Part shown: positions 9,898 through 20,288 of the stretch, one piece after another
How positions within the stretch are numbered: position 1 is the first letter of the stretch
How the letters are laid out: every line of letters begins with the position of its first letter
From: a virus
DNA length: 25,384 bases
IMG/VR virus record: IMGVR_UViG_3300033150_000165
Coordinates: 1-25,384 of that record
Strand: one strand, 5' to 3'
Position numbers and translations under genes: made by a program
Notes under the pieces: model-generated
Databases searched by the model: none
What the model saw: only the letters and a program-made list of their open reading frames with translations
What the model was told of the DNA's origin: nothing

Positions 9898-12183
9898 TTA
9901 TATTATTTTTGAACTGTATCCTTTATTATCATACTTTTTAATACTTAAAGTATGCGATTTTATTATTTTTTCCGCCCTGGGGCTATATTTGTTTTTATTA
10001 CAAGCCATTATAGCTAAGCCTGAGCTAATAGAAGCATCGTGCTTAGTTCTGTTGTTAATATTAAATTTACCCCAATCTTCTAATGTGTTTTGAAAATATG
10101 TAGTTCCGTAAGTGTTATCACTCAATAAGCCTACATGATTTTCTATATAACTTTCAATAGCGGCTGCATGGGCTTGTTTAATATCTTCACTTGAGTTGGG
10201 CATTCCGCCTATTTCTTTTTCTGTAACCGAAAGCTTATTTAAAAGCTTATCTGGGCGGTTCATTGAAAATCCTCTATAACCCCTTCTTTTTAAATAATAT
10301 AATAATCGAGGCTTATTATTTTCAGCTAATATTGGCATGCCATAAAACACTAAAGCCATAAGTACGTCTTCAAAAAATATTTCAGCCGTCTGTGGTCTTG
10401 AAATATATTCTAAAAAAAACGTATTAGCCGGGGCATCTTCTAGGCTAAACTTAGTTAAGCCATGCAAAGATCCTTTAGACCCTTTACCATCAGTCGTTCC
10501 TGATATATCATAACTATCACAGCCAAACGCACCCATATGTTCATTGCCTGGATATTTTATACCATTTTTTATTATTACACGGTTTTGTTGGTTTTTATTA
10601 GGAATCCAAGATATTAAAAATCTTCCATCTTTATTAGGTGAAAATATTACTCTTGTGTCTTGAATACCGTTTTCCCAATAAAAGCTTCCGCGCGTTACAA
10701 TGCTAGAGTTTTTTAAATCTTCATTGTAATCTATTTGCTGATATATTTTGGTTAGATTAAACAAAGACTCTTTAGCCTCATCCCTAAAAGCATGCTGCTC
10801 AGTTCTTGGAAATTGGCGATAATATTCATTCAGTCCATCTTGATCACTTTTAAGACCGTCAACTTCATTTTGCCAATGCTCAATAACTCCCTGATCTATC
10901 GACTCTCCGTAAGGGCCTTGAATGGGCTTTTCCGGTGTGTTGAATACAGGTATCCCATAAGAGTTAATGAATCCTTCGTAGTTCCATTCCATAGGTATGA
11001 ACAAACTATATAGTCCCGAGCTAGTCTGTCCATTGCGATTTCTTTTTGTAACATCTGAAGCGTAATATAGTTTTTTAAAATTCTTTCCTCCTTTGTCTAA
11101 AGAGTTAGATGTTGAGCCCATCATACACTTACCTACGATCCTGGATCCTAAACGTAAACACGTTTTTGTTACGCGCCAGTTATTTAATATATTGTCAGGT
11201 CTCTCCCATTTACCGCTTTCATCGTGAACTAATAGTTTTAGTTTTTCACCATCATAGCTGTTATCACCTGTATTTTTCCAGTCAATAGTTGTGTCTAACC
11301 CCTCAAGCTCTTCTGGGTTTTCACCTTGATCAAGTTTTCTTCTAGTTAGTTTTGAAGCAGGAACCCTATATGCTAATTCTGTTTTCGGACGGTCCATACC
11401 GTCTTGTATTGGTTTAAAAAAGAAAGGGTAATTTACTGATATGGGTACTACCTTATCTGTAAACATTTTTTTAGCATCACCCCCTGATTTTGATAAGATA
11501 CCGAATCTTGAATCTGAACTGATTGTTGCCAGGTTAACAGTTTCGCCTGATGCCATGAATGAGAAACCTGATCGTCTGTTTTTGAGGTAGCACATACCGT
11601 AGCATCTTTGATCTGCTTTGCAAGCTTCCCAGAATATAAAGAATAATCTGTTTGACTCCCTAAAGTCTGCTGCCCCAACATCAATTTTACTCCACTGCTC
11701 CCAGAATATAAAGAATAATCTGTTTGACTCCCTAAAGTCTGCTGCCCCAACATCAATTTTACTCCACTGCAGGTACATAAAGTGAGTGCCAGTGACGTAA
11801 GTAGCCAAGCCCTTATTATAGAACCAAAATCCCTGCGATCTGCGATTAAATTCTTGATCAATGTAGTCATAATATTTATCTTTGAAATACTCAGGCTTCG
11901 TGTTCCATTCAAATACACTTTTAATTTTTTGCAACTCTTTAGGGTAATCTAATCTACCCCATTTGTCTGCTTTAAAAGTGTGCACGTTTGTTTCTTTAGG
12001 CAACGCTATTTTTAGGTTTTGTATTTCATATATTTCACCTATCTGTCCGGTTTTGCTTATTACTACAACGTCATATTCTTTGTTATAGCCATATTCCCAT
12101 TTTTTATAACGGTTGTTTTTCTTAATCACGCTTTTTTTAATGTGATCAGGTAAAACCTTATATAATGTTTGCTCGTATATCAT
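9898..12183 (-). CDS. Terminase large subunit (packaging ATPase-nuclease), with internal duplication
   Basis: This 761-aa protein is the DNA-packaging motor. The ATPase part shows a deviant Walker A (LKNRRSGFSFMAS, residues 200-211), a Walker B (KLLVHDE, 316-322, catalytic Glu322) and a coupling-type Ser/Thr segment (GSTSN, 356-360). The nuclease part shows the RNase H-like acidic set: Asp in GCDSYD (554-559), Glu621 in ILAENN, and Asp716 in KHDASISSGLA. Residues 140-163 are repeated exactly as 164-187 by a 72-bp tandem duplication just before Walker A; without it the protein would be 737 aa. The start at 12183 overlaps the preceding 91-aa gene by ATGA. The family call is strong. Whether the duplicated protein is active is unknown, and an assembly error is possible. 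Confidence 0.93.
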   Translation of the reverse strand: MIYEQTLYKVLPDHIKKSVIKKNNRYKKWEYGYNKEYDVVVISKTGQIGEIYEIQNLKIALPKETNVHTFKADKWGRLDYPKELQKIKSVFEWNTKPEYFKDKYYDYIDQEFNRRSQGFWFYNKGLATYVTGTHFMYLQWSKIDVGAADFRESNRLFFIFWEQWSKIDVGAADFRESNRLFFIFWEACKADQRCYGMCYLKNRRSGFSFMASGETVNLATISSDSRFGILSKSGGDAKKMFTDKVVPISVNYPFFFKPIQDGMDRPKTELAYRVPASKLTRRKLDQGENPEELEGLDTTIDWKNTGDNSYDGEKLKLLVHDESGKWERPDNILNNWRVTKTCLRLGSRIVGKCMMGSTSNSLDKGGKNFKKLYYASDVTKRNRNGQTSSGLYSLFIPMEWNYEGFINSYGIPVFNTPEKPIQGPYGESIDQGVIEHWQNEVDGLKSDQDGLNEYYRQFPRTEQHAFRDEAKESLFNLTKIYQQIDYNEDLKNSSIVTRGSFYWENGIQDTRVIFSPNKDGRFLISWIPNKNQQNRVIIKNGIKYPGNEHMGAFGCDSYDISGTTDGKGSKGSLHGLTKFSLEDAPANTFFLEYISRPQTAEIFFEDVLMALVFYGMPILAENNKPRLLYYLKRRGYRGFSMNRPDKLLNKLSVTEKEIGGMPNSSEDIKQAHAAAIESYIENHVGLLSDNTYGTTYFQNTLEDWGKFNINNRTKHDASISSGLAIMACNKNKYSPRAEKIIKSHTLSIKKYDNKGYSSKII
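11627..11770 (-). repeat. Exact 72-bp tandem duplication inside the terminase gene
   Basis: The bases 11627-11698 and 11699-11770 are identical over all 72 positions and directly adjacent. The unit is 24 codons, so the reading frame is kept. Flanking bases differ, which sets sharp borders. The absence of any substitution implies a very recent event or a sequencing/assembly artefact. Confidence 0.97.
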
Positions 12184-13477: not shown

Positions 13478-13873
13478 TTATTTTGATTGCATGGATTTTG
13501 CTTTCTCCCAGCTACGACCTACAAAATAGGCTCCATACACTGTAACTAAAAGTGTTTGAAATATAGGTATATATTCTTCAGCAATGCTAAACTCACCTAT
13601 ATTGCCATCAAAAAACGCACAAACTGTAAATATAACAGTCAAGTATGTTAATACTAATGGTCTTATATTTTTAGACAACTTAGAATCAGAAGCCATATCC
13701 GCCTGCCATCTTGCTGTAACCTGCTCTTGCGCTTCTTTATCTGCTTTTTCTAGTATTTCTGTTATAAGGCGTTGCGCTTCTAATTTTTCTTCTTTAGTTG
13801 TAGTTAAGTTATCTAAAACTTCACCGACCTCTTTTATAACAGAACCAGTAAGCCACTGCCAAATTTTTTTCAT
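13478..13873 (-). CDS. Holin (3TM / GTA-type holin family)
   Basis: This 131-aa protein begins with an amphipathic helix (IWQWLTGSVIKEVGEVLDNL, residues 4-23) and a charged helical linker (24-68). Two clear hydrophobic segments follow: about 72-88 (PLVLTYLTVIFTVCAFF) and 102-118 (IPIFQTLLVTVYGAYFV), then a basic tail. The TTTKEEKLEA linker and SKNIRPL just before the membrane segment match the three-TM/gene-transfer-agent holin pattern I know from marine phages, with the N-terminal helix as the weak third membrane element. It is translationally coupled to the upstream DUF4846 gene (TAATG overlap), which makes a lysis cassette. It should form inner-membrane lesions at the end of infection. Confidence 0.8.
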   Translation of the reverse strand: MKKIWQWLTGSVIKEVGEVLDNLTTTKEEKLEAQRLITEILEKADKEAQEQVTARWQADMASDSKLSKNIRPLVLTYLTVIFTVCAFFDGNIGEFSIAEEYIPIFQTLLVTVYGAYFVGRSWEKAKSMQSK

Positions 13874-14604
13874 TATATTTTAAATCTTTTTAAATTGTTT
13901 TCTGTAAACCAAAAACCTATATTAGGCACTTCATCTATATTAAACCAAACTGTATTATTTTCGGTATTTATTAATATATGATGATCTTGCGCCGGCATAA
14001 AGCTTTGTGATATCATTATTTTTTTATCTCCACATTCGTTTTCTATTACATCTACAATAGTTACTGCGTGACCTGGAAATCCGCCTATAACAAATATATC
14101 ACCAGCGGACATATCATTTATAGTTACATGTTTTGTGTCATACTTATTTATCGACCACGTTCCAGCGTAAGACCATATAACGGCCATATATTTATTAAAG
14201 CTTTTAAATGTGTTGCTTAGCTTTTTTTGTTTTAAAAACTCGCTATAGCTATACCTTGTTCCATCTGTGAATGTAAATACTATTTTATCTACATTACCTT
14301 TATCAAAATGGTACCAGGCCCTAAAGTACATTGCTGCATCTGCGCACTGATGTAAATCTCTTTTACCAATGCTGTAATCAAACTTTGCCGCATAATAATT
14401 ACCCAGCCCATATACAGCATAACCATCATAAGTTAGCACTTCTTCTATTTTTATCTCTTTATTGATTAACCATTTATGGTAATCCGTTGTAACTATTCTT
14501 TTATAACTTTCTGGTATTTTAAAGTAATTTGATATAGAAAGTTCATCTTGAGCATTGGTAATGCTTAAGCAAAGAAAAGCTAAAATAAAAACTAGCTTTT
14601 TCAT
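13873..14604 (-). CDS. Secreted DUF4846-family protein, candidate exported lysin
   Basis: This 243-aa protein has a Sec signal peptide: MKK, a hydrophobic core LVFILAFLCLSI, and probable cleavage after ITNA (residue 18). The mature part carries hallmarks of DUF4846 as I know it: DGYAVYGLG (60-68), the Cys block QCADAAMYFRAWY (86-98), YAGTWS (146-151), AGDIFVIGGFPGHAV (167-181) and SQSFMPAQDHHIL (199-211). Cys87 and His179 could form a papain/NlpC-like catalytic pair (inference). The family is typical of Bacteroidota cells, so the gene was probably captured from a host. Coupling to the holin suggests it attacks the cell wall from the periplasm, but its substrate is unproven. An envelope-modification role is the alternative. 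Confidence 0.78.
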   Translation of the reverse strand: MKKLVFILAFLCLSITNAQDELSISNYFKIPESYKRIVTTDYHKWLINKEIKIEEVLTYDGYAVYGLGNYYAAKFDYSIGKRDLHQCADAAMYFRAWYHFDKGNVDKIVFTFTDGTRYSYSEFLKQKKLSNTFKSFNKYMAVIWSYAGTWSINKYDTKHVTINDMSAGDIFVIGGFPGHAVTIVDVIENECGDKKIMISQSFMPAQDHHILINTENNTVWFNIDEVPNIGFWFTENNLKRFKI

Positions 14605-14618
14605 TTTATTAAATTAAA

Positions 14619-15512
14619 TTATTTATTTCTATTAAAAAAATTTGATATATTAGTTGGCAATTGTGCCGTTGGCTTTGGAGAACTCAACTGAATTGGTTTT
14701 GGTTTTAAAATTACAGGTTCGTAAGGAGCAGCCTTCGCAGCTTGTCTATATTGTTTTCGCAATGCTGGTAAATCTCCCACATATTGCATTAATCTGGAGG
14801 GGTATATTTTTCCGTCTACCATTCTTTCTTTAATCCTATCCTCATCTATGTGGCCGTATTCTTCTAAAAATTGTTGTGATTCCTCTTTTGTCATGCCTCC
14901 AAAATCGCGGGGATCTGCAAAACTAGCGGCTTCCTTTAGGCCGTAGGTAAGGTTTCCTGGATTGTAAACATTCAACCCGTCGCCTGTTTGAATTGTAGAA
15001 TGAGATGTTACCCCGTACCCGTAGCTGGCTCTAGTAACGTCCCCTTCTTCTGGTGTACTACCAGCGGGCCTTAGTTCAAATCCAAGCTGGGGTGCTACTG
15101 CGTCAAATTGATCGTTGCCCGGTATTATCGGCATTTTGTCGCCAGGCTTGTACGTAACATTATTTATAGTTACTCCGTCTGGCCCAACTGAATTAGGCAC
15201 AGTGACGCCTGCTTCTCGCATTATACTACACGCATAAAGTGAACAAGCCGAGCCTCCTCTTTCTTTTAGCCATTCATATGTTTTTTGAGGAACCACCCCC
15301 GCTCCAGTTACTGGCCCTTCCCCGCCGTAATTCACGGTATATTTATCCGTCCTCACGGCGGCTTCAGCGGTCTCATCAATTCTAGCTCTAATCCCCATTA
15401 CTCTTTTACGCTCAGCGTCTAATGCTTGACGTGCTGCAATACGCCGATCTCTTAACTCATCTTTTGTAAGGTTATCTGTATTATCAGTAGGATTGTCAAT
15501 TTTAAAAGCCAT
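14619..15512 (-). CDS. NlpC/P60-like cysteine hydrolase, probably virion-associated
   Basis: This 297-aa protein has a basic helical N-terminus (15-50), then a probable papain-like hydrolase domain. SACSLYACSIMREAGVTVP (88-106) aligns by eye with the DCSG...YVFREAG.LP nucleophile block of NlpC/P60 enzymes, making Cys90 the nucleophile. EEGDV (155-159) and TSHSTIQTGDGLNVYNPG (169-186) correspond to the GD strand and the catalytic His (His171). The region 205-255 is acidic then basic, and the C-terminus is Pro/Lys-rich. There is no signal peptide, so it should act from the virion during entry or be released by the holin. It begins MAFKIDNP, nearly the same start as the 102-aa gene nearby. Enzyme class is a reasoned guess. 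Confidence 0.6.
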   Translation of the reverse strand: MAFKIDNPTDNTDNLTKDELRDRRIAARQALDAERKRVMGIRARIDETAEAAVRTDKYTVNYGGEGPVTGAGVVPQKTYEWLKERGGSACSLYACSIMREAGVTVPNSVGPDGVTINNVTYKPGDKMPIIPGNDQFDAVAPQLGFELRPAGSTPEEGDVTRASYGYGVTSHSTIQTGDGLNVYNPGNLTYGLKEAASFADPRDFGGMTKEESQQFLEEYGHIDEDRIKERMVDGKIYPSRLMQYVGDLPALRKQYRQAAKAAPYEPVILKPKPIQLSSPKPTAQLPTNISNFFNRNK

Positions 15513-18079: not shown

Positions 18080-18491
18080 AATTTATTTTTTTTATTGCTA
18101 AACTAAGCATACGCTCTGAATATGATTGCGGCTTTTTTATTAGTGGTATTTCTTCCTCATCTAAAAGCATTTTGTACATGCGCGTAATCATTTGTTTACA
18201 CTTAAAGGAAGTTTTATATATATTGTACTTTTGAGTTGTATGGTTTCTTTTTCGCCACACAGTTACCCAGCCTTCTTTCAAAAGTCTATTCCATCTTTTA
18301 TTATCCCAGCTGTAAGCAAGCACGCCTATTTTATAATCGTTTTTTTTAAAGTGGTCTAAGCAATCAAAGTATATTAAAAGCTCCAAATCCGCTTCTTGTA
18401 AATTGTAATTCTTAGCAGCCCATTTTCTAATTATACGGTAGTGCTTTAAAATGTTTAAGTTACGCAGATCAGACGCTTCTAAACGTCTCAT
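18072..18491 (-). CDS. Winged-helix (MarR-like) putative DNA-binding protein
   Basis: This 139-aa basic protein has a helical N-terminus (NLNILKHYRIIRKWAAKNYN, residues 11-30), then LQEADLELLIYFDCLDHF (31-48). KIGVLAYSWDNKRWNRLLKEGWV (54-76) could hold the recognition helix, with WRKRNHTTQKYNIYKTSFKC (79-98) as a wing, and KQMITRMYKMLL is a closing helix. That order matches MarR-type winged helices (LxLLxYL, recognition helix ending in L..G.V, beta wing, 'S.K...' helix), and I recall similar unannotated genes in marine phages. It overlaps groES by ATGA and the next gene by 8 bp. A regulator of late genes or a DNA-bound virion protein are both possible. Confidence 0.58.
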   Translation of the reverse strand: MRRLEASDLRNLNILKHYRIIRKWAAKNYNLQEADLELLIYFDCLDHFKKNDYKIGVLAYSWDNKRWNRLLKEGWVTVWRKRNHTTQKYNIYKTSFKCKQMITRMYKMLLDEEEIPLIKKPQSYSERMLSLAIKKINYE

Positions 18492-18748
18492 ACAACAACA
18501 ACCACGTCTTGCATTCGAATAACGTGGTACATTTTGCCTTCAAACTCTATTTGGTGTCCTGCATGACGATCATAATATATTACATTGCCTTCATTTACAC
18601 CAACTACTTCATCGCCTGCAGAAACGACGCAGGCCTCCGCATATCTAATGTCTTCCCGTTGTTTTTCCGCTATAAGCAAACCCCCTTTTGTTTCAGTTGT
18701 GCCCTGCTTTTTCTTTGATATAACTAAATTTCTACCTATTGCTTTCAT
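18488..18748 (-). CDS. groES: Phage co-chaperonin GroES
   Basis: This 86-aa protein caps GroEL. It has the N-terminal strand GRNLVISKKK, the mobile loop TETKGGLLIAEK (residues 18-29, GGLLI in place of E. coli GGIVL), YAEACVVSAG (36-45) for GEVLAVG, GNVIYYDRHAG (54-64) for GDIVIFN..YG, the IEFEGKMYHVIRMQDV strand (67-82) and a hydrophobic end. It is shorter than the 97-aa E. coli protein, mainly because the 'roof' hairpin between the SAG and GNV strands is cut to about ten residues. T4 gp31 likewise lacks a normal roof. The gene follows groEL (17-bp overlap), the reverse of the bacterial order, and overlaps the winged-helix-like gene. Confidence is high. Confidence 0.92.
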   Translation of the reverse strand: MKAIGRNLVISKKKQGTTETKGGLLIAEKQREDIRYAEACVVSAGDEVVGVNEGNVIYYDRHAGHQIEFEGKMYHVIRMQDVVVVV

Positions 18749-20288
18749 CTGTAACTCTTAAGTTGTTAATTACACAATCTGTTGAAATTATAGTTGTAGC
18801 CACGGAAGCCGCATTTTTTAAGGCACTTTTGGTAACCAATAAAGGATCTATAATGCCTGCTCGTACCATATTTACGTCCTTACCTGTAACAACGTTTAAC
18901 CCTTTATTTTTTGTTTGGGGATAAACAATATCTAAACCTGCATTGCTGAGGATTGTTTCGTATGGAGCTCTTATTGCTTCAAGTAAAACTTTTTCACCCT
19001 CACTTTTAGCTGTTATAGCAGTAGATGCATTAAGCAAAGCAATACCTCCCCCTGGAACTATACCTTCTTTTATTGCGGCTTTTGTAGCACAAATAGCGTC
19101 TTCAACTCTATCTTTTTTCTCTTTTAACTCTACTTCTGAGTTTGCTCCAACTTTGACAGAAGCCACTTTAGCGGAGAGACGAGCAATTCTTTTTTCAAGT
19201 CGAAATCTAAAACCTGATTGCGCATTTTCATCAAGTTGTTTTTTAACTTGTTGTAAAAGCTCTTGAGCTTCTTTACTGGGTTCGTTAATTTGAAAAATCG
19301 TTTCTTCATTATTAGTTACAGATTTTAAACATTCGCCAAGATGTTCGGGCTGTATGAGATCCATGTCGTCCCCAAGATTTTCATTTATTACGGTAGCGCC
19401 TGTTAACAACGCTAGGTCCTGCAATACTTCTTTTTTGGTTACTCCATACGTAGGAGCATCAACAACGTTTACTTTTATATTGCCTTTTACGTGGTTCATA
19501 GCTAGAGCATTTAAAACTTCTAGCCCTAAATCAGCCACTATTAAAAGGCTTCTTTTGTTTTTTATAACGTACTCTAATACGCTTTGTATTTTTCTTATAT
19601 TAGGAACCTCTGATTCTACAATTAAAACTAAAGGATTATTTAGTTCTGAAGTCCCATTTTCTTTATTAGTAACGAAATGGAAGTTTTTAAGCCCCTTGTC
19701 ATATTGCACTCCATCAACAATTTCAATTGTAGTGGTAGCCTCGTTAGATGTTTCCATCATAACCACTCCTGTATTGTCTACAGCTTTAAAAGCCTCTGCG
19801 ATTAAATCGCCAAGTTTTTTATCATTATTGGCAGATATTGTAGCAACTTGGTTTACCATGTCACCCGTTACTGGTATTGCTAGCTTTTCTAAAGCTCCGC
19901 AAACCTTTTTAACTCCTGCGTTTATACCGTCTTTAATGTCGCGAGTGCCATGCGATTTAAGCGCTTTGTAAGCTTGCTTAAGTATTGCATGCGCCAGTAC
20001 CGTTGCTGTGGTAGTTCCATCGCCAGCCTCGCTTACGGTTCTTTGTGCCGCTTGCTTTATTAGTGTTGCTCCAATATTTTCAACCGGATCTAATAGTGTA
20101 ATTGCATTTGCAACAGTCACTCCGTCTTTTGTAATAACAGGCCTGCCTGCGTTATCTTCAAGAATTACACATTTACCGCTAGCCCCTAATGTAGAGCTAA
20201 CGGCTTTTGTGAGTTTTTCAATTCCAGTAAAAACTTTTTCTTTGGCATTATTACCAAAGTTAAGATTCTTAACAATTTTGTCAGTCAT
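18732..20288 (-). CDS. groEL: Phage chaperonin GroEL
   Basis: This 518-aa protein is a group I chaperonin subunit that should fold phage proteins in an ATP-driven ring. The key ATPase residues are present: Asp55 in TKDGV, Asp90 in GDGTTTATVLA, and Asp397 in RVEDAICATKAA, with the PGGGIALL nucleotide loop (412-419) and GIIDP (478-482). The apical face keeps hydrophobic character but differs from E. coli: the GYLSPYF segment reads GLKNFHF (199-205). The nucleotide loop LGPKGRNV is LGASGKCV (34-41). The C-terminus ends in DESNR without the Gly-Gly-Met tail. Length is about 30 aa under E. coli GroEL. The gene opens after an A/T-only leader and overlaps groES by 17 bp. The sequence is divergent, as expected of a phage version rather than a recent host copy. 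Confidence 0.96.
   Translation of the reverse strand: MTDKIVKNLNFGNNAKEKVFTGIEKLTKAVSSTLGASGKCVILEDNAGRPVITKDGVTVANAITLLDPVENIGATLIKQAAQRTVSEAGDGTTTATVLAHAILKQAYKALKSHGTRDIKDGINAGVKKVCGALEKLAIPVTGDMVNQVATISANNDKKLGDLIAEAFKAVDNTGVVMMETSNEATTTIEIVDGVQYDKGLKNFHFVTNKENGTSELNNPLVLIVESEVPNIRKIQSVLEYVIKNKRSLLIVADLGLEVLNALAMNHVKGNIKVNVVDAPTYGVTKKEVLQDLALLTGATVINENLGDDMDLIQPEHLGECLKSVTNNEETIFQINEPSKEAQELLQQVKKQLDENAQSGFRFRLEKRIARLSAKVASVKVGANSEVELKEKKDRVEDAICATKAAIKEGIVPGGGIALLNASTAITAKSEGEKVLLEAIRAPYETILSNAGLDIVYPQTKNKGLNVVTGKDVNMVRAGIIDPLLVTKSALKNAASVATTIISTDCVINNLRVTDESNR

Follow-up and report, generated by a model that had tools for sequence, protein, structure and literature searches.

The DUF4846 protein encoded next to a holin gene in a 25,384-base viral record (the whole stretch of DNA analysed, referred to as the window) was assigned, with moderate confidence, a role as a secreted accessory enzyme, that is, a second envelope enzyme similar to Tgl of Kayvirus rather than the main endolysin of its phage. 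On present evidence, DUF4846 is not the main endolysin, which in relatives is encoded by a separate Peptidase_M15 or Amidase_2 gene. We propose that DUF4846 would be exported through the Sec pathway, lose its signal peptide by cleavage and reside in the periplasm, where it may cut or trim peptidoglycan stem peptides, the presumed substrate. Because the protein could accumulate outside the membrane before lysis, it would probably weaken or remodel the wall during infection. By analogy with Kayvirus Tgl, it would probably also cooperate with the neighbouring holin and speed lysis once the holin fires.

The big genes of the window lie on the minus strand (Table 1). By its terminase, the phage falls close to Cellulophaga phages, to the elemoviruses of Flavobacterium and to a podovirus of 60 kb from Manatee Spring, and the host group of the phage carrying DUF4846 is marine Bacteroidota. 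The terminase gene (minus strand) holds an exact in-frame 72-bp tandem duplication at 11627-11770; since the repeat is single-copy in all four near-identical relatives checked, the duplication may be an assembly artefact. In addition, the minus strand of the window encodes a GroEL-like protein (18732-20288) and a small GroES-like protein (18488-18748) within 18488-20288, and groEL/groES annotations are present in related phages too.

Table 1. Features of the window considered in this analysis, with coordinates counted from its first base.
Feature	Position	Strand	Remarks
Terminase large subunit	9898..12183	(-)	phrog_6681, 4.4e-160; strand shared with the DUF4846-holin pair
Coiled-coil-like gene, 78 aa	13222..13458	(-)	directly 3' of the holin; conserved across the podovirus family
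Holin, PF11351 / phrog_3427 family, 131 aa	13478..13873	(-)	ATG shares one base with the stop of DUF4846
DUF4846 (PF16138), 243 aa	13873..14604	(-)	signal peptide ~1-18; GD 168-169; predicted Cys87, His179
297-aa fast-evolving protein	14619..15512	(-)	divergent NlpC/P60-like by profile; Cys90/Cys95, GD124-125
Zincin-like protein, HEKIH, 102 aa	15828..16136	(-)	marks, across the family, the variable spot that lies upstream of the holin

Predicted enzyme class and export of DUF4846

The protein matched PF16138 with an E value of 1.3e-50 over residues 25-240 (172.6 bits against a cut-off of 37; profile positions 2-239 of 239), and none of the NCBIfam or PHROG models names it. A search with the window's DUF4846 protein did not find it among 50,697 INPHARED phage records. 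Relatives were collected from 18 close and 25 more distant viral loci, and a bacterial sample of 80 loci came mainly from Bacteroidota and Clostridia. The alignment comprised 89 viral and bacterial sequences, 18 of them viral. Cys87 and His179, which the original prediction had described as retained, were invariant in all 89 sequences, as were Gln86, Gly168, Ser201, Met203, Pro204, Ala205 and Gln206; Asp169, the second residue of the GD motif, was kept in 86 and Gln200 in 88. Part of the bacterial set was drawn with an LHQCAD pattern, but the numerous LQQCADA members came in through the second search pattern; conservation of the bacterial cysteine is therefore not circular.

An AlphaFold model calculated from the 89 diverse sequences reached a pLDDT of 93.2 and a pTM of 0.88, and an earlier setting with 12 near-identical sequences (pLDDT 33) was discarded. 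In the model, Cys87 is the first residue of a helix (87-101) and His179 the first of a strand (179-189), while Gln200 closes the strand that follows. Moreover, hhalign of DUF4846 against a profile of 22 NlpC/P60 domains gave a score of 27.75 with GD and His in register, a score reached in none of 200 column shuffles (mean 13.7, maximum 21.2), with a hhalign probability of only 20%, which makes the match a modest one. Foldseek searches of the model against the PDB and BFVD returned no matches at E<=0.001, the weak BFVD matches being DUF2272 and CHAP proteins, and a profile search of PDB sequences gave chance matches only. The model, with its cysteine helix and histidine strand, is consistent with the papain-like fold for which structure prediction had been proposed as a check; in view of the Foldseek results, the assignment of the fold draws on profile similarity and on the order of the motifs.

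From sequence and model, DUF4846 is predicted to be an NlpC/P60-like, papain-like cysteine hydrolase, an assignment that we regard as good but not closed, with Cys87 as the predicted nucleophile, His179 as the predicted base and probably Gln200 as the third residue. On the strength of the GD motif, a 2023 survey by Ozhelvaci and Steczkiewicz had already grouped DUF4846 with papain-like, NlpC/P60-like enzymes (PMC10318531), so the enzyme class is not new. The description of the family as uncharacterised is therefore correct for experiments but not for the fold class, which was already published, and the proposal of a secreted, NlpC/P60-like cysteine hydrolase agrees, as a prediction, with the model, the conserved Cys and His, the profile match and the survey.

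An enzyme of this superfamily need not act on the wall. DUF4846 could be a papain-like protein with a non-peptidoglycan target, such as a periplasmic protein, a lipoprotein or an acyl substrate, or a non-catalytic binder, and the superfamily does include such enzymes (PMC10318531). Consistent with this idea, a Pfam profile search detected no substrate-binding domain in the protein, and Foldseek gave no close solved relative. However, the strict conservation of Cys87, His179, GD and SxMPAQ in the 89 sequences argues for catalysis, and the cell-wall NlpC/P60 family was the closest profile tested; we consider this reading, with either a different target or mere binding, very unlikely.

The N-terminus of the window's protein, MKKLVFILAFLCLSITNAQ followed by D, resembles a type I signal peptide by a crude rule, in agreement with the export signal originally proposed. 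By the same rule, the type I pattern is present in most phage copies, some viral calls being doubtful, whereas 47 of the 71 sampled bacterial copies are lipoprotein-like. The 18 viral sequences formed a single clade (support 100/99) in a tree whose sampling favours viral patterns, suggesting that DUF4846 is a long-kept phage form and not a set of recent pick-ups. No common partner was found among the gene neighbours of bacterial DUF4846.

The holin junction and the endolysin slot

The DUF4846 and holin reading frames lie where the original prediction had placed them, and base 13873 is common to the DUF4846 stop and the holin ATG (TAATG). The holin matched PF11351 (GTA_holin_3TM; 5.9e-6, 27.2 bits against a cut-off of 24.8) and phrog_3427, annotated 'holin' (3.8e-27), which upholds its identity, but hydropathy revealed two clear membrane segments (about 70-88 and 101-119) and not the three that had been claimed. 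As evidence for a cassette, the one-base overlap was rejected because a third of the junctions on the window's minus strand overlap (9 of 27, one-base and longer).

The association with the holin was compared across 21 podovirus loci, several of which come from near-identical contigs and are not independent. DUF4846 abuts the holin in 17 of these loci, and a gene of 163-216 aa sits between the two in the remaining four. The position at or near the holin is kept in members down to 43-51% identity, and such proximity over deep podovirus divergence fits a true lysis role, which counts against the accessory reading. In the wider family, 44 long contigs contained the holin in 37 cases, DUF4846 in 4, M15 in 21 and Amidase_2 in 3. 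Where DUF4846 is absent, the interval from the zincin-like gene to the holin is filled by other genes, some of which likewise overlap the holin start. As the holin occurs in 37 of the 44 contigs and DUF4846 in only 4, DUF4846 is a lineage-specific gain that entered a variable spot next to the older holin gene.

Of seven podovirus relatives searched over their whole length, four encode a canonical M15 or Amidase_2 endolysin elsewhere, and the contigs of the remaining three stop too soon to be informative. In the three closest relatives whose contigs reach the endolysin slot (G002, G005 and G006), a giant late gene and a conserved 84-97-aa gene are followed by the endolysin gene. In G002 and G005 this gene encodes a 119-aa Peptidase_M15 protein and lies about 31 kb downstream of DUF4846; the matching slot of G006 is occupied by a gene for a 135-aa Amidase_2 protein. 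The slot enzymes matched Pfam M15_3 and Amidase_2 as well as the PHROG lysis (endolysin/amidase) families phrog_894 and phrog_822. In the more distant G007 (43% identity), an M15 gene lies 4 kb upstream of DUF4846. An exchangeable M15/Amidase_2 slot is the pattern expected of the main endolysin. The window stops well before the slot, and the contig of its near-identical relative G001 also falls just short, running on for only some 100 bases beyond the giant gene; an endolysin in the window's own phage is therefore inferred by synteny. With M15 or Amidase_2 genes in G002, G005, G006 and G007, DUF4846 is not the sole endolysin candidate in these relatives.

The swap between Peptidase_M15 and Amidase_2 at the end of the late block was located at L144:1271-1630, L145:2987-3346 and L146:5688-6095.

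The original prediction had cast DUF4846 as a secreted endolysin triggered when the holin depolarises the membrane; under this model, the protein would wait in an inactive state in the periplasm until the membrane potential is lost through the action of the adjacent holin. The predicted signal peptide, the conserved Cys and His, the one-base overlap with the holin and the 21 podovirus loci in which the two genes stay adjacent or nearly so all point in this direction, and depolarisation is known to release certain secreted endolysins (PMC6832245). Nevertheless, we consider this role very unlikely, given the separate M15 or Amidase_2 gene in the swap slot of close relatives, the four loci with a gene inserted between DUF4846 and the holin, the occurrence of the holin mostly without DUF4846, and the replication-gene neighbourhood of DUF4846 in another lineage (described below). 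The last two observations also speak against a two-gene lysis cassette, and the M15 or Amidase_2 genes elsewhere in four of seven podovirus relatives against DUF4846 as the endolysin. A hydrolase gene that touches a holin gene, therefore, need not encode the endolysin, which is a caution for similar annotations.

DUF4846 in a second lineage and its 297-aa neighbour

DUF4846 is also present in crAss-like-type contigs of 88-114 kb. In G012, whose terminase is nearest to those of crAss-like phages at ~25% identity, DUF4846 lies in a rightward replication block beside an HTH replication-initiation-like protein, followed by helicases and DNA polymerase. The opposite strand of G012 carries a PG_binding_1+Amidase_2 endolysin, the terminase, portal and head genes and a phrog_3427 holin. 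An Amidase_2 gene lies on the strand opposite to DUF4846 in G008, G011 and G013 too, and a family A DNA polymerase is encoded near DUF4846 in L037 and L044. DUF4846 thereby coexists with a canonical endolysin in four podovirus relatives and in four crAss-like-type contigs (G008, G011, G012 and G013), and its replication-gene setting in the second lineage indicates that a link to lysis loci is not a general feature of DUF4846.

A survey of phage DUF4846 genes for holin neighbours, which the original prediction had recommended, gave a divided answer, as DUF4846 was at or near the holin in the 21 podovirus loci but not in the crAss-like-type lineage. Likewise, the combination named beforehand as adverse, a clear endolysin elsewhere together with DUF4846 away from lysis loci, was found in part: endolysins are present in relatives, and the displacement from lysis loci is seen in the second lineage only.

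The main rival to the accessory role is that DUF4846 remodels the host envelope apart from lysis, for example for the export of other proteins or a block of superinfection, and that its holin adjacency in podoviruses is incidental. In crAss-like and related contigs, DUF4846 lies beside either an HTH protein of replication initiation or a family A DNA polymerase and is divergent from the late block holding the endolysin and holin. Furthermore, bacterial copies are mostly predicted lipoproteins and have no consistent neighbour, suggesting that the ancestral role was not lysis. In podoviruses, however, DUF4846 sits beside the holin on the strand of the terminase, portal and head genes, and Kayvirus Tgl illustrates that a secreted enzyme transcribed early can still serve lysis. 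We therefore regard remodelling without a part in lysis as possible but doubtful, and retain the accessory lysis role as the preferred reading.

In the crAss-like-type loci L039, L046 and L050-L056, DUF4846 is preceded by a lipoprotein-like gene of 51-81 aa (ending CKSKKKYYKSQKCWNAKKQK...) and by one for a small protein bearing several membrane segments.

In podoviruses, the gene directly upstream of DUF4846 is always that of the 297-aa protein, which has no evident signal peptide. Its match to the NlpC/P60 profile (33.4; shuffle maximum 24.2, 0 of 200) is better than that of DUF4846 and centres on a GxxCSxxAC motif and GD. By hhalign, DUF4846 and the 297-aa protein showed no homology to one another (0.3%). 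The 297-aa gene was present in all 8 podovirus records with DUF4846 and in none of the 42 without it, a co-occurrence that shared ancestry alone could explain. Among five crAss-like-type phages with DUF4846, three encode a relative of the 297-aa domain within a frame of 774-789 aa, and a fourth gave a weak match. We speculate, as an unlikely arrangement, that Bacteroidota phages acquired the 297-aa protein (intracellular) and DUF4846 (exported) jointly, as a wall-acting pair beside the canonical endolysin.

Comparison with known enzymes

Through this analysis, a phage clade of the DUF4846 family is well resolved for the first time and placed in a biological context that lends itself to testing; the results suggest that, in phages of diderm Bacteroidota, an exported cysteine hydrolase is used beside the endolysin. 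Within PF16138, the phage protein is a member far above the cut-off and retains GD, Cys and His; relative to the bacterial members, phage copies form a clade of their own, mostly with type I signal peptides, whereas most of the sampled bacterial ones are lipoprotein-like. The likeness to NlpC/P60 enzymes (PF00877, MEROPS C40) lies in the order Cys, GD, His and polar residue, in the significant profile match and in the predicted extracytoplasmic location. In contrast to these enzymes, DUF4846 gave no PF00877 match at E<=1, its Cys and GD are ~81 residues apart instead of ~38, its nucleophile context is QCAD instead of DCSG, and its third residue is probably Gln and not His.

With the Sec-dependent endolysins LysTP712 and Lys44 of fOg44 (PMC6832245), DUF4846 shares a signal peptide, predicted here, and a holin neighbour. 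However, each of those enzymes is the main endolysin of its phage, whereas DUF4846 relatives carry a second, canonical endolysin. Kayvirus Tgl is a homologue of host exported autolysins that bears its own signal peptide, is transcribed early and is lytic in its host only after loss of the membrane potential (PMC7150955). DUF4846 resembles Tgl as a phage homologue of host exported enzymes, with its own predicted signal peptide and a place near lysis genes, and in both systems the main endolysin is encoded elsewhere. The two differ in that Tgl belongs to Gram-positive phages and acts as a lytic transglycosylase, whereas DUF4846 is a predicted cysteine hydrolase of phages of diderm Bacteroidota.
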